From a virus: a stretch of DNA of 20,546 nucleotides. The position numbers and the translations under genes are program-made. The stretch lies in IMG/VR virus record IMGVR_UViG_3300035701_000357, positions 1 through 20,546 of that record. One strand, given 5' to 3'. The notes beneath the pieces were generated by a model. The model was not told where the DNA came from and searched no databases. It saw only the letters and a program-made list of their open reading frames with translations. Shown here one piece after another: positions 413 to 12,871 of the stretch (positions are counted from its first letter, which is position 1; each line of letters starts with the position of its first letter).

Positions 413-805
413 ATGCCAAAACGTTCAAAAAAGAAAAGTCATTATCACACAGGAACGTATCCTTCTATAAAAGGAGGTGAATGTTCTTATCGTAGTGGGT
501 GGGAACTTGCGTACATGCAGTATCTAGACTCCAATCCAGACGTAGCGTCATTTGAATATGAAACTTTAAAACTTCCATACATTAGCAATTACAAAACTGC
601 TCGTGTGAAATGGTACATTCCAGACGTTTTGGTGAATTATGTTAATGGTGAAAAGAAGCTTGTAGAGATTAAACCAAAAAAGAAAACCGAGCAGGCACAG
701 ATTGTGAAGAAGGCAGAGGCCGGTAGAGTATGGTGCAGTGAACACGGAGCAGTCTACGAATTTATAACAGAAATCGAACTCAAGCAACTAGGGCTCATGA
801 AATAA
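413..805 (+). CDS. 4: gp4-like head-completion protein / TnsA-type PD-(D/E)XK nuclease fold
   Basis: A 130-aa basic protein with the layout of a TnsA-like endonuclease fold: helix with YRSGWELAYMQYL (E31), then KWYIPDVLV (D71), then LVEIKPKK (E85, K87). The E-D-ExK set is complete, so a working metal-dependent nuclease site is possible. T4 gp4, a head-completion protein of similar length (about 150 aa), shares the YRS.WE...L and PD...EIKP pattern; it acts after DNA packaging, before tails are joined. That assignment is from family knowledge, the residues are seen directly. The start is the first ATG, 3 nt after a CATAAT box, and has no good Shine-Dalgarno. It could instead be a standalone TnsA-like nuclease with a recombination role, since the next genes are recombination genes. 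Confidence 0.72.
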   Translation: MPKRSKKKSHYHTGTYPSIKGGECSYRSGWELAYMQYLDSNPDVASFEYETLKLPYISNYKTARVKWYIPDVLVNYVNGEKKLVEIKPKKKTEQAQIVKKAEAGRVWCSEHGAVYEFITEIELKQLGLMK

Positions 806-841: not shown

Positions 842-1426
842 ATGGCAAAAACCGGTCTTGTATTAGGTTTAGACGTTTCAACGAGTATCACCGGTCTTGT
901 GTTGTTAGATAACGTAATTGATTTTGATCCAAAAAAAAATATAGTTCATTATGAACCAATAGAGTTCAAGGGATGTACTACATTTTGGCAAAAATGTGAT
1001 AAGATCAAGTCACAACTTGATAAGCTTTACATTCAACAACCAAATGTTGAAAGTTTCTTCATAGAAGAACCAATGAAGAGATTCGCTGAGGGATTTTCTA
1101 GTGCTGAAACAATTAGCGTATTACAACGATTTAATGGGATAGTTTGTTATCTTGTTAGAGAAGTTTGGAAAATTGATCCCGTATACATAAATGTGTCATC
1201 AGCAAGAAAATCAATAGGAATCAAAGTCACAACAAAAGCAAAAGCCGGGGGTAGAAATGCCAAACAACAAACGTTTGATCATGTTACTGCTGGTGACTTA
1301 AATCACATTGTTTGGCCTACAAAGAAACGTAGCGTAAATACTGTTGATTGGGCAAAAGATGTCGTAGATGCATTTGTGATAGCTCGAGCAGGTATCATTC
1401 TGAACAATTCAGGTGTTGTGAAGTAA
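842..1426 (+). CDS. RuvC-like Holliday-junction resolvase
   Basis: A 194-aa protein with the RNase H-fold signature of RuvC-type resolvases: an N-terminal beta strand LVLGLDVSTSITG carrying D11, a second acidic strand FFIEEP with E75/E76, and a C-terminal helix with D173 and D176 (KDVVDAFVIA). These match the four acidic metal-binding positions of the family. Length is close to cellular RuvC (about 170 aa). Role: cut branched recombination or replication intermediates before packaging, a job done in T4 itself by the unrelated gp49. It starts at an ATG with TATAAT just upstream and no Shine-Dalgarno, and is followed after 9 nt by the primase gene. Family assignment is strong; the substrate is inferred. 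Confidence 0.85.
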   Translation: MAKTGLVLGLDVSTSITGLVLLDNVIDFDPKKNIVHYEPIEFKGCTTFWQKCDKIKSQLDKLYIQQPNVESFFIEEPMKRFAEGFSSAETISVLQRFNGIVCYLVREVWKIDPVYINVSSARKSIGIKVTTKAKAGGRNAKQQTFDHVTAGDLNHIVWPTKKRSVNTVDWAKDVVDAFVIARAGIILNNSGVVK

Positions 1427-1435
1427 CTTGATATT

Positions 1436-2431
1436 GTGTCTATTTCTACGTTAAGCGATAAAGTAAAGTTCATTGAAAATGTGTTTGGTTCTGGAAAACT
1501 AGCACGTAATGAAAAGAACTTTGATATTAGGTGTCCAATTTGTGCACCTCGTGATCCAAGTAAACGTAAGTTAGCAATCAAAATCGATGATGATCAAAAT
1601 CATTGTTGGACATGTGGCTGGCGCGCGAGAACACTTGCACCATTATTAGCAAAGTATGCTAGTAGAGAAAAGCTACGTGAATACATTGATCGTTTTATAC
1701 CGGAGACAAATAAACGATTCATTGAAAACGTTTTAGAACAAAAAAGTAAAGTTGAATTACCTAATGACTTTAAATTGTTGGTAACTCTCGATGAATCAGA
1801 TCCTGATGTGAAGTCTGTTAAACAATATTTGTCTGAAAGAGGATTAACAGAGCGAGATTTTTGGTATTTCCGTATTGGAATATCGGATGAATTACGTTGG
1901 AAACGTCGAGCAATTGTGCCATCATTTGACGCAAATGGTGACGTGAATTATTTTGTTGCCCGAACAATTGATAAAAAGAAATATCCCAAATATGATAATC
2001 CAGATATTGAAAATAAACTTCATATTATCTTTAATGAAATGAACATTAATTGGTCAGAAAGATTAGTGTTGTGTGAAGGTGCATTTGATATGTTTAAATG
2101 TGGTGACAATGTAGTTCCATTATTAGGCTCAACTTTAAATGAAGAATCTGCATTATTCAACTCAATTTTAATAAACAATACACCTGTAGCAATTGCTCTT
2201 GACGCAGATATGTGGTACACAAAGACACCAAAATTAGCTAAAAAGCTTACAGAATATAATGTTGATGTTGTGATTGTTGATACTCGATCATTCGATGATC
2301 CAGGTAGCACTACAAAAGATCGATTTAATGAAGCATTATTACTTGCAAGACCTTTTGATTGGTTTGATTCGTTTAAAACACGCCTTGATCACGCTGTTGG
2401 TATGAGTATATCCATTAGTAATGATTATTGA
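1436..2431 (+). CDS. 61: DNA primase (zinc-finger plus Toprim, gp61-like)
   Basis: A 331-aa protein with an N-terminal zinc-binding domain (C33, C36 in CPIC; C57, C60 in CWTC), and a Toprim core whose motifs are LVLCEGAFD (E214) and AIALDADMW (D256, D258). The order and length fit phage DnaG-type primases and T4 gp61 (342 aa). It makes RNA primers for lagging-strand synthesis at the replisome, normally with a gp41-type helicase; no helicase gene lies in this window. The start is a GTG, since no ATG lies upstream in frame and the zinc domain begins soon after. No clear Shine-Dalgarno is seen. It follows the resolvase by 9 nt, suggesting cotranscription. Confidence 0.85.
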   Translation: MSISTLSDKVKFIENVFGSGKLARNEKNFDIRCPICAPRDPSKRKLAIKIDDDQNHCWTCGWRARTLAPLLAKYASREKLREYIDRFIPETNKRFIENVLEQKSKVELPNDFKLLVTLDESDPDVKSVKQYLSERGLTERDFWYFRIGISDELRWKRRAIVPSFDANGDVNYFVARTIDKKKYPKYDNPDIENKLHIIFNEMNINWSERLVLCEGAFDMFKCGDNVVPLLGSTLNEESALFNSILINNTPVAIALDADMWYTKTPKLAKKLTEYNVDVVIVDTRSFDDPGSTTKDRFNEALLLARPFDWFDSFKTRLDHAVGMSISISNDY

Positions 2432-2466
2432 ACAATTTGTAAATTAGCCGTAGTATTAAATTATTA

Positions 2467-3129
2467 ATGATTAGAATATGTCACTTTGCTGATGTTCACA
2501 TCAGAAGTCTTTCTCGCCATGCAGAATATGTTCAGGTTTTTACTGATCTTGTAAAGCAATGTAAGGAGAAAAATATTGAACACATTTTTGTGGGAGGAGA
2601 TATCTTTCATACAAAAACGCAAAATCTTTCACCTGAATACATTGATTTTATGACATGGTGGTTGACAGAATTAACATCTGTTTGCGACGTACATCTTACA
2701 CTTGGAAATCATGATGGAAATTTAGTGAATGCATCTAGACAAGATGCAGTGTCACCAATTGTAAAAGCCCTTAAAAATCCAAAAGTACATCTTTACAAAA
2801 AAAGTGGAATGTATGAATTTTCACCTGGTTACGTTTGGTGTGTTTTTAGTTTGTTTGATGAAGATGGTTGGAAAGACGTTAAACCAATAGAGGGAAAAAT
2901 CAATATTGCATGTTATCATGGTCCTGTTTGGGGTGCCGCAACAGAAACTGGTTGGGAAGTTGAAGAAGGATTAAAAATTGATGACTTTCGAGCATATGAT
3001 TTTTGTTTTTTGGGTGACATACACAAATTTCAATTCTTAGACTTTCGTGATTGTGAATTTGTAATAGATGAAAATGACTTAGATCAATACCCTGGTGCTG
3101 AAATATTAGAAAGAATAAGTGATGGGTAA
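2467..3129 (+). CDS. 47: Mre11/SbcD-type nuclease, catalytic domain only (gp47 N-terminal part)
   Basis: This 220-aa ORF holds all phosphodiesterase motifs of Mre11/SbcD/T4 gp47: FADVH (D9, H11), GGDIFH (D45), LGNHD (N81, H82, D83), CYHGP (H151) and GDIHK (D184, H186). The nuclease site is therefore complete. What is missing is the C-terminal part that normally follows in the same polypeptide (T4 gp47 is about 340 aa): the ORF stops soon after GDIHKFQFL, and the expected continuation, PWIAYPGSTIQQNYG, appears at once in the next frame as the start of the gp46-like ORF. The stop TAA at 3127 overlaps the downstream ATG at 3122 by 8 nt, which would allow coupled translation. Role: with gp46, resects DNA ends for recombination-dependent replication. 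A sequencing indel or +1 frameshift could also explain the break. Confidence 0.88.
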   Translation: MIRICHFADVHIRSLSRHAEYVQVFTDLVKQCKEKNIEHIFVGGDIFHTKTQNLSPEYIDFMTWWLTELTSVCDVHLTLGNHDGNLVNASRQDAVSPIVKALKNPKVHLYKKSGMYEFSPGYVWCVFSLFDEDGWKDVKPIEGKINIACYHGPVWGAATETGWEVEEGLKIDDFRAYDFCFLGDIHKFQFLDFRDCEFVIDENDLDQYPGAEILERISDG

Positions 3130-5698
3130 GATAAAAATCAAAACCAAAAAACCATGGATTGCTTATCCTGGTAGTACAATTCAACAAAACTATGGAGAAG
3201 ATCTTTCTCATGGATATCTTGTGTGGGACATTCATGATCGTGATAATTTTGGTGTTAAATTTTATGAACTTATAAATCCTACACCTTATGTCACAATTGA
3301 TTGGACAGGTGATGTTGAATCAACGATTAAGTTTGCTAGTTCGAACTTTCCACAAAAAAGTCGTTTTCGTATTCGTAGTAAATCACAATTAGCACAAAAA
3401 GATACAACAGATTTATCGTCAAGATTATTGAGTGAATTACTTGCTTCAGATGTAACGTTTAAATATGATCAGAAGGCAGATCGTAGTATCATAACAACTG
3501 ATATTTCAACTATATTAAAGGAAGATCTTAGAAATCCTGATGTAATAATCAAATTGTTTAGCAAGTATCATCATGACAAAAACATACCTGCTGATGAGTG
3601 GCAAAAAGTTTATGATTTTGTTAAGCAATATGTTGCTAGCGTTAACGCTGAAGAAATCGTACGAAATACAAAATGGTCATTACGTCATTTGAAATTTGAT
3701 AATACGTTTACGTATGGAACTGATAATGTTATCAATTTTGATAAGTTGAATGGAATCATTGGAATTTTTGGTCCTAATCGTTCTGGAAAATCATCTATTG
3801 TTGGAACGATTATGTATGCTTTATTCAATGGAACAGATCGTGGTTCAATAAAAAATATTCACGTTGTTAACATAAGAAAACCTCATTGTTATTCACGTGC
3901 AATCATTAGTGTAAGTGGTGTAGATTATGTGATTGAACGTCAGACAACTAAAAGTGAAAATAAATATGGACAAATTAATGCTAACACTGCGTTAAACGTT
4001 TTTCGAATTGATAATGGCGAAGCGATCGATTTGGCGGGCGAACAAAGAACTGATACTGAAAAAATTATTAGAAATATAATAGGAGAACCTGAAGACTTTT
4101 TGTTAACATCGTTGTCAGCTCAGGATGAGATCAAATTGTTTATTTCATACGGATCTACAAAGCGTCGTCAAATCTTGGCTAAATTTCTAGACTTAGACAT
4201 CTTTGATAAGATGTATGACTTGGCAAGAAATGATTTAAATGCCACGAAAGCAATTATAAAAAATTATCCAGATCGTGACTGGGGTGTTTTAAACAGTGAA
4301 TTGGTTCTTAAAGTAAAAGAATGTGATGATGGAATTCAAAATCGTAGCACTTTGTTACAAGAACACCAAGAAAAACTTGATGATTTACGAATCAAGTTGG
4401 CAGACAATAAAGAGTTTATACCAGTAACAAAATTACAAGTTGATGCTCAACGTCTTCGTGTTGATCAACTTAATAAACAATTGAATAGTCAGACAACACA
4501 ACTTAATGAGATAAAAGATCAAATTGAAAAATTGACAACAAAGATTAAAAAAATTGATGTTGTTCAAAAAGAAAATAATGTTCTTGATCTCAAGATTCGC
4601 TTAACTGCATTTAGAGAACTTGAAACGTTTGTCAATCATTTACGTCATGTACATGAAATTGAAACATCAACGTTTAATTCACATGAAAAATCATTAAAAA
4701 TATTGTCTGATGTACCTTGTGGTGATCAATTTCCAACTTGTAAGTTCATTAAAGATGCTCACGTTAACAAAGAAAAAATTGATGAACAAAGAATAAAAAC
4801 GTCTACTGCTCTTGAAAGTTTGAAAAAAGCTGATGAATCGTTAGATGTTTTACGTCAAGAAGGTATTGCTGAGCAAATTGAAAAAATAGAGCAATTGAAT
4901 GATTTGTGTAATCGTTTTCAACTTGAAATATCAACAAAACACATTGAACTTGTTAAAATTGAAATAAGTTTGAACGCTACAAAACCAAATCTTGATTCAG
5001 CAATCATTCGTTTAAACGAACTTGAAAATGCATTAAAAAATGAACAAAATGCTGAAGTTGTTTCATTACGTTCAGAGATTGATAATCTTACGTTAGATAT
5101 CAAAAAATTAGATGCAGAAAAACTTGATTTTGCAACAGAGCGAGGCAAAGTTCGAACAACGATTGACAAATACAAAGAAGAAAAATTACAGCGTGATGAA
5201 AAGTTACAACACATGAAAACGTTTGAATTAGTTGTTCAAGCGTTTTCACGTAAAGGAATTCCTAGTGTTATTACAACTTCTCAATTGCCAATTATTAACG
5301 CTGAAATTGCTAGTATTTTACATGGTATAGTTGATTTTACAATAGAATTAGAGATCAATGATGATAATGATGCTACAGAAATTTATATCAATTATGGTGA
5401 TAGCAAAAGAATAATTGAATTGTGTAGTGGTATGGAAAAAATGATTGCATCAATTGCAATTAGGGTAGCACTAATCAACATATCGTCTTTGCCAAAAACC
5501 GATATGTTCATTATTGACGAAGGATTTGGTGCTCTTGATGATGCTAGTGTAGAAGCATGTAATCGTTTATTAGTTTCATTGAAACGATATTTTCGTTTGA
5601 TACTGATGATTAGTCATGTCGATGCCGTGAAAGACATCGCTGATAATGTAATAGAACTAACAAAATTTGAAAATGATGCAAAGGTTCTTTATGCTTAA
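3122..5698 (+). CDS. 46: Mre11 C-terminal region fused to Rad50/SbcC ATPase (gp46-like)
   Basis: An 858-aa chimera. Residues about 10-61 are the end of an Mre11 fold (PWIAYPGSTIQQNYGEDL and a strand ending VTIDW). About 62-195 resembles an Mre11 C-terminal/linker region. Rad50 then begins at LRHLKFDNTFTYG: Walker A GPNRSGKSS at 217-225, long coiled coils from about 390 to 700, signature LCSGME around S769-G770, Walker B FIIDEGFGALDD with D799/E800. The coiled-coil apex carries two cysteines as C533-x6-C540 (PCGDQFPTCKF) instead of the usual zinc-hook CxxC. ATG 3122 is chosen over GTG 3119; it overlaps the catalytic ORF by 8 nt. Role: ATPase clamp for the DNA-end-processing complex. The family is certain; the domain boundary between the two genes is unusual. 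Confidence 0.9.
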   Translation: MGKIKIKTKKPWIAYPGSTIQQNYGEDLSHGYLVWDIHDRDNFGVKFYELINPTPYVTIDWTGDVESTIKFASSNFPQKSRFRIRSKSQLAQKDTTDLSSRLLSELLASDVTFKYDQKADRSIITTDISTILKEDLRNPDVIIKLFSKYHHDKNIPADEWQKVYDFVKQYVASVNAEEIVRNTKWSLRHLKFDNTFTYGTDNVINFDKLNGIIGIFGPNRSGKSSIVGTIMYALFNGTDRGSIKNIHVVNIRKPHCYSRAIISVSGVDYVIERQTTKSENKYGQINANTALNVFRIDNGEAIDLAGEQRTDTEKIIRNIIGEPEDFLLTSLSAQDEIKLFISYGSTKRRQILAKFLDLDIFDKMYDLARNDLNATKAIIKNYPDRDWGVLNSELVLKVKECDDGIQNRSTLLQEHQEKLDDLRIKLADNKEFIPVTKLQVDAQRLRVDQLNKQLNSQTTQLNEIKDQIEKLTTKIKKIDVVQKENNVLDLKIRLTAFRELETFVNHLRHVHEIETSTFNSHEKSLKILSDVPCGDQFPTCKFIKDAHVNKEKIDEQRIKTSTALESLKKADESLDVLRQEGIAEQIEKIEQLNDLCNRFQLEISTKHIELVKIEISLNATKPNLDSAIIRLNELENALKNEQNAEVVSLRSEIDNLTLDIKKLDAEKLDFATERGKVRTTIDKYKEEKLQRDEKLQHMKTFELVVQAFSRKGIPSVITTSQLPIINAEIASILHGIVDFTIELEINDDNDATEIYINYGDSKRIIELCSGMEKMIASIAIRVALINISSLPKTDMFIIDEGFGALDDASVEACNRLLVSLKRYFRLILMISHVDAVKDIADNVIELTKFENDAKVLYA

Positions 5699-5999
5699 TT
5701 TAATCTGGGAACAATATCATCAAGATAGATTAATAGCAAATCATCCACAGGGATTTTTGATAATCATACCAAAGAATGAGGCGACCTCAGTTCCATTAAG
5801 TTGTCCAGTCTGTGACATATTGTTCCGTTCTCGTGATGACGAGATGGCATATCAAGAATTCAAGTGTTGTGATATATGTGCTATGCAATGGGCTCATGCA
5901 AGAAAAACTGAATGGAATGAAGGATGGAGACCTTCGCCCGAGCAAGTTTTAGAGTCAATTAAAAATCGCCCACCTCCTTTTATTATTCTAGATGTTTGA
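5691..5999 (+). CDS. Small zinc-knuckle protein of unknown function
   Basis: A 102-aa protein with two cysteine pairs, C38-x2-C41 (CPVC) and C59/C60...C63 (CCDIC), spaced like a zinc ribbon or treble-clef finger, followed by a Trp-rich helix (MQWAHARKTEWNEGW). I chose ATG 5691 over the ATG at 5667 because AAAGG at 5680-5683 sits 7 nt before it and the overlap with the gp46 stop (ATGCTTAA) is then 8 nt, the same geometry as at 3122-3129. It is probably translated together with the recombination gene upstream. It may bind nucleic acid or a protein partner; I do not recognise a named family. Confidence 0.7.
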   Translation: MLNLIWEQYHQDRLIANHPQGFLIIIPKNEATSVPLSCPVCDILFRSRDDEMAYQEFKCCDICAMQWAHARKTEWNEGWRPSPEQVLESIKNRPPPFIILDV

Positions 6000-6041
6000 C
6001 TAGATCAATGCGTAAGTGTAATACAATTGATACACATAGTC

Positions 6042-7064
6042 ATGTATCGATATTTAACGCTTGATGAAATTCATCAACAAATTTTTGAGAAACATGGTAA
6101 TGTTGTTAAAATTAGAGATAAAACGTATATTAGTGTAAGTAAAAAAGCAACGTTTATTGATTGTGATTATGGCGAATGGGTAACGAAAGTTAACATTGTT
6201 TTAAGTGGTCATGGACACACAAAAAGAGGAAGACAAAAAACGTTTGACTCTATACGTTTAACGCCAAATAAAATTACACAACATATGAAATTTTTGTGGG
6301 ATGGCGTTGCAACATTTGATGAATCTACATATGTAAATCGTGAAACACCTGCTCGATTTATTGATAAAGATTATGGTGAGTGGTGGGTTAAACCGCTTCA
6401 TGTAATGGGAGGAACGGGTCGACATCCTAAGCGTGCTAGAGCAAACACGGTGTCTTCTAGAAAGCTTTCTATTGATACGATCATTGATCGTATACGAAAA
6501 GTTCATGGTGACAATATCATAATGTGTTTAGACACCTATTGTGGTACACGTAAAAAAGCAAAATTTATCGATAAACAATATGGTGAATGGTGGACATCAC
6601 CTAGCAGTGTTATGTCGGGGCGTGGTCATCCCGCTGGCAAATTAAAAAAAGCAATTATGACAATGCGTTCTTTTAAATCTGTTAAACATTGGAAAACTAA
6701 CGAAATTTGCTATCCTGCATCGGGATTTGAATACGCTGTTTTGGTTTGGTTGTGTATGAACAAATATGATTTTGGTTGGCAAATTCCGATACAATTACCA
6801 ATGTTGACTCCAAAATTAAAACGATCCGTTATTTACAATGTTGATTGTTTTATAAAAAGCGGACCATTTGCAAATACATTTATTGAGATAAAGGGTACGT
6901 GGTCACGTCGACAAAATAACGACGGAGGGTATGCAAAATGGGAATGGTTTCATGCAAATTACCCAAACTCTCAATTGTGGATGAGAAAAGATTTGATTAA
7001 GCTTAATATTATCGATGACAATAGATCCTATTTAGAAAAAGCGAGACTAAATGACAAAAATTAA
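6042..7064 (+). CDS. Probable mobile endonuclease: three DNA-binding-like repeats plus PD-(D/E)XK-type domain
   Basis: A 340-aa basic protein. Residues 1 to about 200 contain three copies of a 68-69-residue unit with the core A.FID.DYGEWW..P..V..G.GHPKR, the FID motif following alanines at residues 36, 104 and 173. Such repeats recur in phage proteins of the DUF723/endonuclease type and probably contact DNA. The C-terminal part has E230, D268 (YNVDCF) and E282-x-K284 (FIEIKGTW), a plausible nuclease site. It sits alone between recombination and packaging genes and its end overlaps the next ORF by 14 nt, as expected for a late-inserted free-standing homing-type gene. ATG 6042 is preferred over TTG 6027; neither has a clear Shine-Dalgarno. 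Nuclease activity and mobility are inferred. Confidence 0.68.
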   Translation: MYRYLTLDEIHQQIFEKHGNVVKIRDKTYISVSKKATFIDCDYGEWVTKVNIVLSGHGHTKRGRQKTFDSIRLTPNKITQHMKFLWDGVATFDESTYVNRETPARFIDKDYGEWWVKPLHVMGGTGRHPKRARANTVSSRKLSIDTIIDRIRKVHGDNIIMCLDTYCGTRKKAKFIDKQYGEWWTSPSSVMSGRGHPAGKLKKAIMTMRSFKSVKHWKTNEICYPASGFEYAVLVWLCMNKYDFGWQIPIQLPMLTPKLKRSVIYNVDCFIKSGPFANTFIEIKGTWSRRQNNDGGYAKWEWFHANYPNSQLWMRKDLIKLNIIDDNRSYLEKARLNDKN

Positions 7065-7437
7065 TTATGCAGCTTTGGGCCAGGCTATTGACACAACATG
7101 GGGCCGATCAAGCACGCCAAAAACAGCGTCATATTCTGTAAAGATATCGTTAATGGGTCCTGATAGATTGCTGGTATCTTACGCAGCAGTTGTTAATTTT
7201 GGAACAGAACGTCAAATGATTGAGATGAAACGTGCATATGCCTCTGAGTCAGAGTCAATTGTTAATGAAGTAATCAAGCGTGTAAAATCAACATATAAAG
7301 AGTTAACAGGTTCAACGTTAAGTGCAAAATCTTCAAAAGAAGGTCATGTTGATTCATTAGAAATCATTAATCTAAACATTCATAACGCTAAAAGAACAGC
7401 TTATTATCGTCGTAAAGCCATATTTGAATTAGGATAA
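7051..7437 (+). CDS. Hypothetical protein upstream of terminase
   Basis: A 128-aa soluble protein with no cysteines, a central strand-rich part (YSVKISLMGPDRLLVSYAAV) and charged helices after it (ESIVNEVIKRVKSTYKEL). It lacks a recognisable helix-turn-helix, so it does not look like a typical small terminase subunit although its place, 3 nt before the large terminase gene, is where one could be. The ATG overlaps the end of the endonuclease gene by 14 nt. The close spacing to the terminase ATG suggests the two are translated from one message. Function unknown. Confidence 0.72.
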   Translation: MTKINYAALGQAIDTTWGRSSTPKTASYSVKISLMGPDRLLVSYAAVVNFGTERQMIEMKRAYASESESIVNEVIKRVKSTYKELTGSTLSAKSSKEGHVDSLEIINLNIHNAKRTAYYRRKAIFELG

Positions 7438-7440
7438 TTC

Positions 7441-9063
7441 ATGGCTTCGAGTAATACATTTTCTCGAGAAGAACAAGTAAAAGAGATCATTAAATGCGGT
7501 AAAGATCCTGCTTATTTCATAAAAAATTACGCAAAGATTCAACACCCCACGCGTGGAACAATTTTATTTGAAACGTATGATTTTCAAGATGATTGCGTAC
7601 AATCATTTGTTGATCATCGATTTAATATCATTTTAAAATCTAGACAACTTGGGATATCAACAATTAGTGCTGCATATGCAACATGGGTAGCAATCTTTCA
7701 AAAGGACAAAAATATTCTTGTTATCGCTACTAAATTAGCAACAGCACAAAATTTTATTAAAAAAGTGGCTGTGATTTTGCAAAGCTTACCAAAATGGTTG
7801 TTATTACCAAGATTTGAGCCATCTAAACAACAGATTGGATTCAGTAACGGTTCACAAATTAAAGCAGTTCCAACTTCTGATGATGCTGGTCGTTCAGAAG
7901 CATTATCTTTGTTGATTATTGACGAAGCTGCACATATTAGAGATTTTGATGAAATTTGGACTGGTTTATATCCCACCGTAAGTACAGGTGGTCGTGCGAT
8001 AATATTGTCATCTCCAAAAGGAATTGGTGGACAATATTATCGCTTATGGACAGAGGCTGAAGCTGGTGTTAATGAATTTAATGCAATAAGATTACCTTGG
8101 ACAGTTCATCCTGAACATGATCAGGCATGGTTTGTGAATGAAACAAAAGGCTTTTCAAAACGTGAAATTGCACAAGAATATTTGTGTGACTTTTTAACGT
8201 CTGGTGATACCTTCCTACAACCAGAAGATCTTGAAAATCTAAGAGTTCAGATTGTTAGTCCAATTGAGAAATCAGGTCACGATAACAATGTTTGGATTTG
8301 GTCACATCCAATTCCTGGACGTTCATATGTTATTTCAGCTGACGTTGCCCGTGGCGATGCAAGAGATTTTTCTACATTTCATATCATTGACACGAAAGAT
8401 AGTGAAGTCGCCGCGGAATATATGGGTAAAGTTCCACCAGAAAAATTGGCCGATATGTTGGCCGACTGGGGGAAAAAGTATAACAATTCACTAATCATTC
8501 CGGAAAATAACACATTTGGATATTTTGTTTGTACAAAATTACGTGACACCATTGGATATAAACAATTGTATTATCATGGTCATAAAGGTGATCCATTCGC
8601 ATACATTCCAATTGATCAAACAGAAAATCCTGGATTTCCAACAAATCAAAAAACGCGAGTTCAAATATTAACAAAATTAGAAGAACTCATAAGAAATAAA
8701 CAACTTAAAAGTTATTCTCAAAGATTGTATGATCAATTACAAGCATTCATATGGCAAGGAAATAAACCACAAGCATCAAAAGATAGTTATGATGACTTGA
8801 TTATGAGCTTAGCAATTGGATGTTGGCTTGTAGAAGGCAATGCTGGATTGAATGATCAAGCTGTTGCAATGTCATATGCAATTTTAAAAGCTACTACAGT
8901 TTCTCGTCGTGATTCTTCACAGATGCCAAATGACATTAACGTAATTAAACCACTTGTTAATCCACAAATTAAAGGATTCAACCCACATACCGCTCATAGA
9001 CCACGTCATGCATCACAAGTAAGAAATGCAGATCTTAGTGACTTTACGTGGTTATACAAATGA
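7441..9063 (+). CDS. 17: Terminase large subunit (gp17-like packaging ATPase/nuclease)
   Basis: A 540-aa packaging motor protein. ATPase domain: Walker A-like SRQLGIST at residues 67-74, Walker B LLIIDEAAH with D161/E162, coupling motif LSSPKG near 190-194. RNase H-like nuclease domain: D301 (ISADVARGD), E355 (IIPENN) and D451/D452 (SYDDLIMSL). In T4 gp17 the Walker A is SRQLGKTT; here the lysine position is isoleucine, so the arginine at 68 probably does its work, as in other terminases with a deviant P-loop. It cuts concatemeric DNA and pumps it into the prohead through the portal. AGGA lies 6-7 nt before the ATG. At 540 residues it is a little shorter than T4 gp17 (610). Confidence 0.96.
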   Translation: MASSNTFSREEQVKEIIKCGKDPAYFIKNYAKIQHPTRGTILFETYDFQDDCVQSFVDHRFNIILKSRQLGISTISAAYATWVAIFQKDKNILVIATKLATAQNFIKKVAVILQSLPKWLLLPRFEPSKQQIGFSNGSQIKAVPTSDDAGRSEALSLLIIDEAAHIRDFDEIWTGLYPTVSTGGRAIILSSPKGIGGQYYRLWTEAEAGVNEFNAIRLPWTVHPEHDQAWFVNETKGFSKREIAQEYLCDFLTSGDTFLQPEDLENLRVQIVSPIEKSGHDNNVWIWSHPIPGRSYVISADVARGDARDFSTFHIIDTKDSEVAAEYMGKVPPEKLADMLADWGKKYNNSLIIPENNTFGYFVCTKLRDTIGYKQLYYHGHKGDPFAYIPIDQTENPGFPTNQKTRVQILTKLEELIRNKQLKSYSQRLYDQLQAFIWQGNKPQASKDSYDDLIMSLAIGCWLVEGNAGLNDQAVAMSYAILKATTVSRRDSSQMPNDINVIKPLVNPQIKGFNPHTAHRPRHASQVRNADLSDFTWLYK

Positions 9064-9472: not shown

Positions 9473-12400
9473 ATGGCAAAACAAGAACCAAAAAGCCTTT
9501 TTAGACGTTTAAGCGCATTATTTCGCTCTGGTCCCGTTGTTAAAAGAAAAATACGAGGGTTAGATACTACACTTGCGATTGCTGATAAAGCAAAGTCGTC
9601 AGGAACACTTCTATTTCAAAAATCCTTGTCGCCGACGTATGCGACGATAACATCAAATGCATACAATCTCTCAGAGCGAATGATGAGGTATCAAGATTTT
9701 CAAGAAATGGAATATTGTGTATCATTTCAAACACTTATACCAACTGTTGATGGATTTGTAGAGATTGGAGAGCTTGCTAGTAGGTGCCTAGAAGATCAAA
9801 ATTACACCTTCATAGTGTACTCTTTTGATCATGAAAAGAAACAAATCGTTCCTACGATTGGAAAACAAGCTCGTTTAACTAGAACTGATCATGCGTGGAA
9901 AGTAACGTTTGATAATGGTAAAGAATTAATAGGTACGTCAAATCATCGATTAATGTTGCGAGATGGAACTTATCGAGAAATTGGTGATCTGAAGCCTGGA
10001 GATGCAATGATGCCTTTTTACCGCAAAGACCTGTTTGCGAATGCTGAAGAAGGCACAAAGGGTTACTCGTGGGTCTACACGATGGATGATAGGTTCAAAG
10101 GTTGGACCAAGGAACACCAATTGATCGCTGAATGGATTGCGGGACGCAAGCTTGCTGAAGACGAGTGTGTCCATCACATCAATTTCGATAAAATAGATAA
10201 CAGGCCAGAAAATCTGCGGATCATGACGAATTCTGACCACAATTCGTACCATGCCGCGATCAATAATGGCATGAAGTGGGCACCTGAGAATCATGAATGG
10301 ATCGAGCAGTTCAAGAAGAACCATGCAACGTGGATGCGAGATAATGCCCCGACCGCTCGACGCGACGTGACATTTGGTCGTATTTTAGAGATTAGTGAGT
10401 GTTTTGATTTTGATTTGATTTCAATATGTCGAACACTTGATGTTGATCGTAACGTTATCTATTCTAGGCTCGCAGATCATGGATTTGCAAACTATGATAG
10501 CTTTGTACAAGCGTATCGTCAAGGTGCTGAACTATTAGAAAATAAGAGATCTCTTCGTACTAGTGATTTATCAATAGAAAAAATCTTAGCCTTGATCGAA
10601 GAGCCAGATACAAAGCAATCATTGTGCATTAAATTGGGTTGTACTGTAAATGTTTTCAACAAATTCCTAGATAGAAAATTAGTGAAAAGTTGGATTCAGT
10701 TACGAACTGAATTAGGTTGGGAGCCGGCGACATTTCGTTCAGGCGGGTGCCCTAAGGGAAGCAATGGCAACGACCTAACGTTCAAACAGATTTGCGATGC
10801 TTACACCCCTGGTCTTACGCTACCTCGACTCGCAGATACGCTGGGCGTCAACAAGAATACAATCATCTCTCGGCTCGCGCAGCAAGGCCATGAGCGCTAT
10901 ACAGAGTTCCAGACATCTTACGCTAATTGCAAGGTCGTTTCAGTCGAGTACGTTGGAGTGTTGCCCCTCTACGATCTCACCGTTGATGGTTATAAGAACT
11001 TTGCAACTGACAGTGTTATCTCACACAACACACCTGAGCTTGCGGCAGCGTTAGACATATATGCAGATGAAACATGTGCGCAAGATGAAAAAGGGCGAAT
11101 TCTTCATGTTTATTCTGAAAATGAAAAGATCAAAGAAAACTTAGAAGATCTTTTTTATAACGTATTGAACGTAGAATTTAATCTTAGATCCTGGGCAAGA
11201 AATCTGTGTAAGTACGGTGATTTCTTTCTTTATAATGACGTTTCACCAACATATGGTGTTGTGAATTCATTTCCAATACCTGTTAATGAAATAGAGCGTG
11301 AAGAAAATTATGATCGTGATGATCCTTTTGCTGTTCGTTATCGGTGGGTAACACTAGGAAATCGTACACTTGAAAATTGGGAAGTAACACATTTTAGACT
11401 TCTTGGCAATGACATGTTCTTGCCATATGGTTCTTCCATCATTGAACCTGCTAGACGAATCTGGAGACAATTGATTTTGATCGAAGACGCGATGTTAGTT
11501 TATCGTGTTGTAAGAGCACCTGAACGTAGAGTTTTTTATGTTGATGTTGCAAACGTACCACCAGAAAATGTACCTATGTACATAGAAGAACAAAGAAAAA
11601 ATCTCAGAACAAACCAGGTTGTAGATAGTACCACTGGAAGAGTTGACTTGCGTTATAACCCACTTAGCGTTGACGAAGACTACTTTATTCCTGTCAGAGG
11701 AAATGATTCCGGCACGCGTATTGAAACTCTCGCAGGTGGAAATAACACAGCAGCCGTCGAGGACGTTGCGTATATTCAAAAGAAGTTGTTTGCTGCATTA
11801 AAGATTCCAAGAGCATATCTTGGATACGATGAAATGTTATCTTCAAAGGCGACTCTTGCGCAGGAAGATATTCGATTTTCACGAACAATTGCTGTCATTC
11901 AAAAAACAATTATTGCTGAATTAAACAAGCTTGCAATTATTCATTTGTATGCTCACGGATTTGACAATGAAGATCTTCAAAATTTTACATTAAGACTTTC
12001 TAATCCTTCTACTGTTGCACAACAACAAAAACTTGAATTATGGCGTGCAAAGTTTGAAATTGGAGGCTCTTTGCCAGAAGGAATGGGAAGTGCTGAATTT
12101 GTTCAACAAGAGATCTGGGGTCTTAGCATAGAAGAGATTGAAAAGATCAACGCACAAAGAATGAAGGAAAAGGTTCAGAACGCTAAGATTGAAGCAGCGG
12201 CTGCTGGTACAACCGGCGACGAAGGTGGAGATGATATTGGTGGAGGTGGAGATGATTTATTTGGAGGCGGCGGAGGGGAAGAGGAAGCCGCTGGAAATGA
12301 GGAACCAGGTGGTGAAATACCTCCTGAAGAAAATGCAGGTGAAGAACCTGAAGAAGAAAAATACAATAAAGAATTATTGACATCTATTGATGATAATGAA

Positions 12401-12871
12401 GATGATGAAGAATTTAGTCTTAAAATGTCGTCAATGAATGATTCTGAAAAACCCGTGAAAGTTCAACCTCAATTAAAACGAGCTTTATATAATAACTCTC
12501 GTCATAGAACACACGGAGCTTCAAAAACACATATGCCTGATTTTGTTAAGATGACTGGTGTTGATAGTCGTTCAATGAAAGATCCAACTGATTCTGATTT
12601 TATTAAGTCAGTTGTTTCAAATCCATTTGGTGAATCTACGTCTCGTGTTAAGTCTCCATTTTCAGGATTATCACCTGATGTTTGGTCTTCGCTTAAACAC
12701 ATGCAGGCATCATTTAAGAATGATATGAAAACAACCTCTCAAGGTTTTTCATCTGGTGTTTTAACAGAAAGTGATGACTCTATTGAATTAAACGTTAACA
12801 ATGAAGATCTTCCTGATGAAGATGAAGTACTTATCATTGAGGGAAGCGATAATAGTGTTGAGGAAGATTGA
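9473..12871 (+). CDS. 20: Portal protein (gp20-like) interrupted by an in-frame intein
   Basis: A 1132-aa ORF: N-extein 1-81, intein 82-519, C-extein 520-1132. Joined, the exteins give a 694-aa portal. Family marks in the C-extein include LRSWARNLCKYGDFF, the clip/wing region, and LSSKATLAQEDIRFSRTI, typical of T4 gp20. After about residue 905 comes a Gly/Glu-rich low-complexity linker (IGGGGDDLFGGGGG) and a roughly 200-residue charged tail absent from T4 gp20 (524 aa). The portal is the dodecameric ring at one vertex that nucleates head assembly and is the channel for DNA. AGAGGGG lies 7 nt before the ATG, a strong Shine-Dalgarno. Because head assembly needs the portal, intein splicing should be essential for this phage. 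Confidence 0.95.
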   Translation: MAKQEPKSLFRRLSALFRSGPVVKRKIRGLDTTLAIADKAKSSGTLLFQKSLSPTYATITSNAYNLSERMMRYQDFQEMEYCVSFQTLIPTVDGFVEIGELASRCLEDQNYTFIVYSFDHEKKQIVPTIGKQARLTRTDHAWKVTFDNGKELIGTSNHRLMLRDGTYREIGDLKPGDAMMPFYRKDLFANAEEGTKGYSWVYTMDDRFKGWTKEHQLIAEWIAGRKLAEDECVHHINFDKIDNRPENLRIMTNSDHNSYHAAINNGMKWAPENHEWIEQFKKNHATWMRDNAPTARRDVTFGRILEISECFDFDLISICRTLDVDRNVIYSRLADHGFANYDSFVQAYRQGAELLENKRSLRTSDLSIEKILALIEEPDTKQSLCIKLGCTVNVFNKFLDRKLVKSWIQLRTELGWEPATFRSGGCPKGSNGNDLTFKQICDAYTPGLTLPRLADTLGVNKNTIISRLAQQGHERYTEFQTSYANCKVVSVEYVGVLPLYDLTVDGYKNFATDSVISHNTPELAAALDIYADETCAQDEKGRILHVYSENEKIKENLEDLFYNVLNVEFNLRSWARNLCKYGDFFLYNDVSPTYGVVNSFPIPVNEIEREENYDRDDPFAVRYRWVTLGNRTLENWEVTHFRLLGNDMFLPYGSSIIEPARRIWRQLILIEDAMLVYRVVRAPERRVFYVDVANVPPENVPMYIEEQRKNLRTNQVVDSTTGRVDLRYNPLSVDEDYFIPVRGNDSGTRIETLAGGNNTAAVEDVAYIQKKLFAALKIPRAYLGYDEMLSSKATLAQEDIRFSRTIAVIQKTIIAELNKLAIIHLYAHGFDNEDLQNFTLRLSNPSTVAQQQKLELWRAKFEIGGSLPEGMGSAEFVQQEIWGLSIEEIEKINAQRMKEKVQNAKIEAAAAGTTGDEGGDDIGGGGDDLFGGGGGEEEAAGNEEPGGEIPPEENAGEEPEEEKYNKELLTSIDDNEDDEEFSLKMSSMNDSEKPVKVQPQLKRALYNNSRHRTHGASKTHMPDFVKMTGVDSRSMKDPTDSDFIKSVVSNPFGESTSRVKSPFSGLSPDVWSSLKHMQASFKNDMKTTSQGFSSGVLTESDDSIELNVNNEDLPDEDEVLIIEGSDNSVEED
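9716..11029 (+). mobile_element. Intein with HNH homing endonuclease, inserted in the portal gene
   Basis: A 438-aa class-1-type intein. Block A: C82 at the N-junction (Y/CVSFQTLIPT). Block B: GTSNHRLM at 154-161 with the TxxH histidine H158. HNH domain: ECVHHINFDKIDNRPENL with H234/H235, then a conserved IMTNSDHNSYH. C-terminal block F: LPLYDLTVDGYKNFATDS. Block G: VISHN with terminal His-Asn, followed by Thr as the +1 nucleophile (SHN/TPEL). All residues needed for splicing are present. Between the HNH and block F are helix-turn-helix-like modules. GC content jumps within the element: about 40% at the start, 42-60% over the HNH part, 27-38% over 10380-10680, about 52% over 10740-10980. Confidence 0.95.
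10370..10927 (+). repeat. Repeated helix-turn-helix-like modules inside the intein
   Basis: The first (10370 to about 10531) and last (10778 to about 10927) modules are clearly related in protein sequence: compare LDVDRNVIYSRLADHG with LGVNKNTIISRLAQQG, each followed by a Y..F...Y end. A weaker middle module (about 10562-10710) has the pattern LCIKLGCTVNVFNKFLDRK. Each looks like a small DNA-binding helix-turn-helix, probably giving target recognition to the HNH nuclease. The first and last copies differ sharply in base composition (about 27-38% against 52% GC). Confidence 0.6.

Follow-up and report, generated by a model that had tools for sequence, protein, structure and literature searches.

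A homing intein in the T4-type portal protein gene of an uncultured phage, and twelve intein insertion sites in the portal genes of its relatives

The window, a stretch of 20,546 nt of viral DNA, contains an open reading frame for a portal protein with a large insert in frame (Table 1). The profile Portal_T4 (PF07230, E 5e-67) matches this ORF from residue 519 on, and the fold of an intein-free relative (L032) resembles the T4 portal 6uzc with a Z score of 18.6. The protein is a T4-type gp20, and its uncultured phage is related to the Far-T4 phages; no described group that we found in the literature is nearer. No close relatives were found in cultured phages, plasmids or bacterial genomes, where the best matches were distant, with the exception of one contig (L237, NVTD01000053.1). 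This contig carries a phage portal with four inteins and is filed under a Wolfebacteria MAG; it is probably viral and was binned with the bacterium.

Table 1. Portal gene of the window and parts of its intein (window positions)
Feature	Position	Strand	Remarks
Portal ORF with intein	9473-12871	+	1132 aa; T4-type portal protein (gp20) plus 438-aa insert
N-extein, portal residues 1-81	9473..9715	+	70-92% identity with relatives; unbroken in intein-free ones
Intein, 438 aa, Cys1 to His437-Asn438, in frame between Y81 and T82	9716..11029	+	
Block A, from Cys1 (Cys or Ser in relatives)	9716..9754	+	Profile match and alignment
Block B, TSNH (T74xxH77)	9935..9946	+	H77 invariant in 23 aligned site-81 inteins
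HNH homing-endonuclease domain (HH..N...DN...NL...H)	10115..10243	+	Pfam HNH_3, E 2e-7
Helical repeat 1, probable helix-turn-helix DNA-recognition unit (intein 217-270)	10364..10525	+	AlphaFold model and alignment
Helical repeat 2 (intein 284-335)	10565..10720	+	Absent from a 376-aa form of the intein; AlphaFold model and alignment
Helical repeat 3 (intein 353-403)	10772..10924	+	AlphaFold model and alignment
Blocks F and G (KVVSVEYVGVLPLYDLTVDGYKNFATDSVISHN)	10931..11029	+	TIGR01443; D420, H437 and N438 invariant in 23 aligned inteins
C-extein, portal residues 82-694	11030..12871	+	T82 is the +1 nucleophile

At the upstream junction codon 81 (TAT, 9713-9715) is directly followed by TGT for Cys1 of the intein (9716-9718), and at the downstream junction the last intein codon, AAC for Asn438 (11027-11029), is followed by ACA for the threonine at position +1. 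The Pfam profile Intein_splicing matched the insert with an E value of 2.8e-13, above the profile cut-off, and TIGR01445 (N-terminal splicing region) and TIGR01443 (C-terminal splicing region) matched ORF residues 82-161 (E 4e-7) and 499-520 (E 4e-4), respectively. Since Pfam as well as NCBIfam profiles recognise the insert, a chance resemblance is excluded. The match to HNH_3 (ORF residues 215-257) was likewise above the cut-off, and the residues of a class 1 cis-splicing intein, namely Cys1, T74SNH77, H437-N438 and Thr+1, are all present.

A scan of viral contigs with the window protein yielded 80 relatives, which were aligned to the spliced 694-aa sequence; sites are numbered on this spliced portal throughout. 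The insert follows residue 81 without a single extein residue lost or gained, and the exact empty site exists, many relatives being uninterrupted at this position. The preliminary description of this DNA had placed a complete HNH intein at 9716-11029. Judged from the codons at both junctions these coordinates are exact to the base, and profiles, junction codons and relatives bear out the splice residues, the HNH domain and the Y/T junction after residue 81 named there, as well as the lengths of 438, 694 and 1132 residues for intein, spliced portal and precursor. The alignment with intein-free homologues that it had proposed gave precisely this junction. It had also held that homologous portals with the same insert lacking splice motifs would speak against an intein. 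We looked for such homologues and found none: each of the 59 distinct inserts at site 81 begins with Cys (46) or Ser (13), ends with His-Asn and is followed by Thr. By every sequence criterion the window feature is a genuine homing intein.

In the AlphaFold model of the intein (pLDDT 73.5) a HINT splicing domain is built from both ends of the intein, with the HNH domain in the centre. The model aligned with the NpuDnaB intein 4o1r over 134 residues at 1.9 A (Z 20.5). It further contains three four-helix units resembling helix-turn-helix DNA-recognition repeats, the helices of the first one being predicted at intein residues 220-229, 234-241, 245-254 and 260-272; from the model, we infer a role in DNA recognition for these repeats. 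The site-81 inteins fall into two size classes, 437-449 aa with three repeats and approximately 367-379 aa with two, and form one clade in the tree of splicing domains (support 99/89). Their HNH motif is kept in 58 of the 59 distinct sequences, and the 23 aligned ones all have H153, H154, N162, N166 and H175 in the HNH domain.

Very similar inteins at site 81 were found in diverged portals. L038 and L068 have inteins with 96.8% identity; their exteins differ by about 20% away from the site, but the 40 codons around the site are 98% identical. The inteins of L015 and L017 are 98.8% identical, and again the exteins are about 20% different except beside the site. The ratio of divergence near the site (within about 20 codons) to divergence far from it was 0.45 in 17 pairs with similar inteins versus 0.89 in 723 intein-free pairs, and a ratio of 0.4 or lower was reached by 0.3% of these control pairs. 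The 4-fold degenerate positions point in the same direction (0.42 near and 0.56 far, as compared to 0.65 and 0.65 in the controls). The pair L017/L018 was dropped as evidence for transfer because the shared upstream DNA allows for a chimera; it is still one of the 17 pooled pairs. In pairs of which one member carries the intein and the other lacks it, the expected surplus of differences close to the site did not reach significance (8 of 13 pairs, p 0.74). The intein has moved horizontally together with co-transferred flanks, which is the pattern of homing. The HNH endonuclease is presumably the cause of this spread, and general phage recombination without endonuclease cutting could have carried the intein and its flanks as well.

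These transfers bear on the possibility that the intein is a relic which still splices, has a dead endonuclease and is inherited vertically with occasional loss. Shortened or missing HNH domains are found in relatives at several sites, as the homing cycle predicts, and the endonuclease part evolves faster than the splicing part: dN/dS values, available from three unsaturated pairs only, are 0.01-0.03 for the extein, 0.03-0.07 for the splicing part and 0.06-0.26 for the endonuclease part, which is thus under looser constraint than the splicing part. However, the near-identical inteins in diverged portals indicate recent transfer, and at site 81 the HNH residues are invariant and the motif is nearly always kept, as stated above. 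We regard a relic as unlikely.

The preliminary description had further suggested that a portal host places head assembly under the control of protein splicing. In that case the intein would be retained as a switch: splicing that depends on a condition (redox, temperature, metal or timing) would delay or gate the maturation of the portal and hence head assembly. The T4 portal is indeed the nucleus of head assembly (PMC4493910), and other inteins splice conditionally, for example that of mycobacterial DnaB (PMC6195587). The distribution of the intein argues against a switch. An unbiased scan, whose query (portal residues 143-292) spans neither site 81 nor most of the other sites, gave 67 distinct complete portals. 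One or more inteins were found in 28 of them (42%) and the site-81 intein in 23; the other 39 have no intein at any site. The site-81 intein is scattered at random over the portal tree: with 128 spliced portals its state changes at least 40 times as compared to 41 times with shuffled labels, and 15 of the changes are forced by well-supported branches. The truncated contigs L034 and L190 were left out of this tree; including both gave the same result. In L046 and L274, with and without the intein, 1578 nt of the spliced portal are 99.5% identical at the DNA level. From the random presence and this discordant pair, portal function and regulation appear to be independent of the intein. No trigger residue was identified. 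The proposed control of head assembly finds no support here, and we consider a switch quite improbable.

Relatives carry inteins at further portal sites, some of which can be placed on the T4 structure. Sequence alignment matches site 293 with T4 residue 328, which is part of the clip, and sites 351-352 with T4 residues 390-391 of the tunnel loop. The fold comparison puts site 81 between two predicted helices, close to where the wing begins; since the portal model is a weak one (pLDDT 59), the N-terminal sites could be put on T4 only roughly. Left in place at these sites, inserts would probably obstruct the channel or the ring, and splicing is therefore presumably needed. It is hardly conceivable that the insert is a non-splicing HINT or structural insertion domain retained in the portal, given that every splice residue is kept, that the insert is exactly removable and that twelve inserts of 40-50 kDa at the clip or tunnel loop of the relatives would be expected to block the channel. 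An assembly artefact joining unrelated sequences is just as implausible: all records are metagenomic contigs, and L017 and L018, which share the intein and everything upstream and diverge only downstream, could represent a chimera, but the window allele recurs on a second contig (L006, 24 kb) and the same in-frame junction is present in dozens of divergent alleles from separate samples.

We consider it very probable that the window element is a site-specific, currently mobile homing intein, parasitic in its behaviour, and that the gp20 gene is a common target, with 11 further sites occupied in relatives. In the proposed mechanism the HINT domain of the 1132-aa precursor would fold as in other members of the family, and Cys1, the histidine of the TxxH motif, Thr+1 and His-Asn would carry out protein splicing. 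The 438-aa intein would be released, leaving a 694-aa portal subunit able to join the ring. If an intein-free relative infects the same cell, the three helical DNA-binding repeats would direct the HNH domain to the Y81|T82 codons of the unoccupied gp20 gene, where it would cut, and repair by recombination would copy the intein plus some flanking DNA into the empty gene.

In the portals of the group we found inteins at 12 positions, namely after residues 70, 76, 81, 92, 96, 140, 216, 229, 293, 351, 352 and 354. Altogether 94 inteins are carried by 68 of 183 distinct related portals, a share which is skewed by searches that used the intein, so that 42% (28 of 67, see above) is the better rate. 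Several portals are invaded repeatedly: one has five inteins, one four (L237) and four have three each (L039, L227, L294 and the huge phage LR756508, L002). The portal with five (L182, IMGVR_UViG_3300031707_000100, 899-7084) is located on a 33.6-kb contig and has an uninterrupted frame of 2484 aa; its inteins occupy sites 81, 92, 140, 293 and 352, and the HNH domains of those at 92 and 140 are truncated. In L227 the inteins follow residues 70, 76 and 81, with just six and five extein residues in between. Most inteins of the group keep the HNH domain and several have lost it, those without a recognisable one being found at sites 70, 81, 92, 96, 140, 216, 229 and 293. The insertion sites are not significantly more conserved than random positions (P 0.17). 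At some rare sites occupied and empty alleles have different +1 residues: Cys or Ser versus mainly Gln, Ser or Ala at site 76, Ser versus mainly Ala at site 92, and Cys versus Val or Cys at site 140.

Two types of inteins, starting with Pro and with Cys or Ser, occur together in one gene. Inteins starting with Pro and having a Cys in block F were observed at site 140 (L026:5758-6921, L039:7768-9096, L207, L237, L294 and L307), and several more at site 293. Class 3 inteins are characterised by a first residue that is not a nucleophile and a Trp-Cys-Thr triplet. Judging by the Cys in block F, the inteins with Pro1 at sites 140 and 293 may belong to this class; the Trp of block B is present in part of them and the Thr of block G is inconsistent. 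In the tree of splicing domains these Pro1 inteins cluster together, and the two site-70 inteins are placed beside the site-81 clade. Both groupings suggest jumps within the portal gene. At least two intein families have invaded site 293. On balance we favour the view that the portal gene is an intein trap, a gene with twelve sites that is invaded serially (up to five inteins, and in one phage three in a stretch of 11 residues), unites two splicing chemistries in a single polypeptide and sees inteins jump locally from site to site. If so, up to five splicing events per subunit would have to take place before the twelve-part portal ring forms.

Within about 6 kb in the loci no inteins were detected in neighbouring ORFs with a home-made profile, the matches being truncated portals. 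Further inteins were found elsewhere on longer contigs, and the portal is thus not the sole target. The terminase large subunit of contig G021 (L335:655-4998), outside the locus stretch covered by the profile, contains two LAGLIDADG-looking inteins; it lies about 5 kb upstream of the three-intein portal L227 on the same contig. The contig of L011 carries (L333:363-5531) what by eye is a class II ribonucleotide reductase in three ORFs separated by two apparent split inteins; free-standing nuclease ORFs lie between the reductase halves, resembling a "fractured gene" arrangement. In the window itself a free-standing ORF of 345 aa (6027-7064, plus strand) has repeated N-terminal units that match phage HNH-endonuclease families (phrog_559, E 3e-12), and its C-terminal part (YPASGFEYAV ... 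FIEIKGTW) may adopt a different nuclease fold. From these matches it is probably a homing endonuclease adjoining the packaging genes. A TnsA-like nuclease ORF (413-805, plus strand) matches phage head-closure families (phrog_218).

The portal group is a natural and very dense data set on the competition of inteins for one gene. Among close relatives, empty sites, occupied sites and inteins that have lost the endonuclease represent every stage of the homing cycle at once, and families of differing chemistry are found side by side. The overlapping targets at 70, 76 and 81 raise the question of how a second intein would invade a site already broken by the first. Surveys using gp20 as a marker gene are affected as well, as primers and alignments can fail on interrupted alleles, and the portal inteins might be developed into new orthogonal splicing tools.

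The preliminary description had pointed out that phage inteins are better known from replication enzymes and terminases. Portal inteins are, however, already known from six mycobacteriophages of cluster C1 (Kelley et al. 2016, PMC5050341). The likeness lies in an intein within a phage portal protein; the six phages belong to one subcluster, whereas the window encodes a T4-type gp20 of an uncultured Far-T4 relative. The paper on the Far-T4 phages does not mention inteins (PMC4360716). Terminase inteins, described for crAss-like phages (PMC7886860) and phage JA1 (PMC3670811), are likewise phage inteins in the head-packaging module, and those of the crAss-like TerL are of the Hint type like that of the window. 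They reside in another host gene, however, and the neighbouring terminase of the window (7441-9063) is devoid of an intein. In its predicted structure the window intein shares the HINT splicing domain with NpuDnaB (4o1r), SspDnaB (1mi8) and MtuRecA (3ifj; Z 20.4-20.5, 134-136 residues, 1.8-1.9 A), with 15-25% identity, but these structures are without an HNH module. The densest cases that we found in the open-licence literature are the haloarchaeal MCM gene with four insertion sites and the Haloquadratum polB gene with three inteins (PMC10643990). As in the portal group, several clustered sites are occupied independently; in haloarchaeal MCM-d, moreover, invaded alleles have the required +1 residue and empty ones often lack it (PMC10643990), and the same is seen at some of the rare portal sites. 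MCM and polB are replication genes, with LAGLIDADG endonucleases in MCM, whereas the portal is a structural phage protein with mostly HNH inteins, 12 sites and up to five inteins per gene. Among open-licence papers we found no report of inteins in T4-type portals or of five inteins in one gene. What is new is how densely this portal gene is occupied by inteins and how they are stacked; the window intein itself is of a well-known kind.
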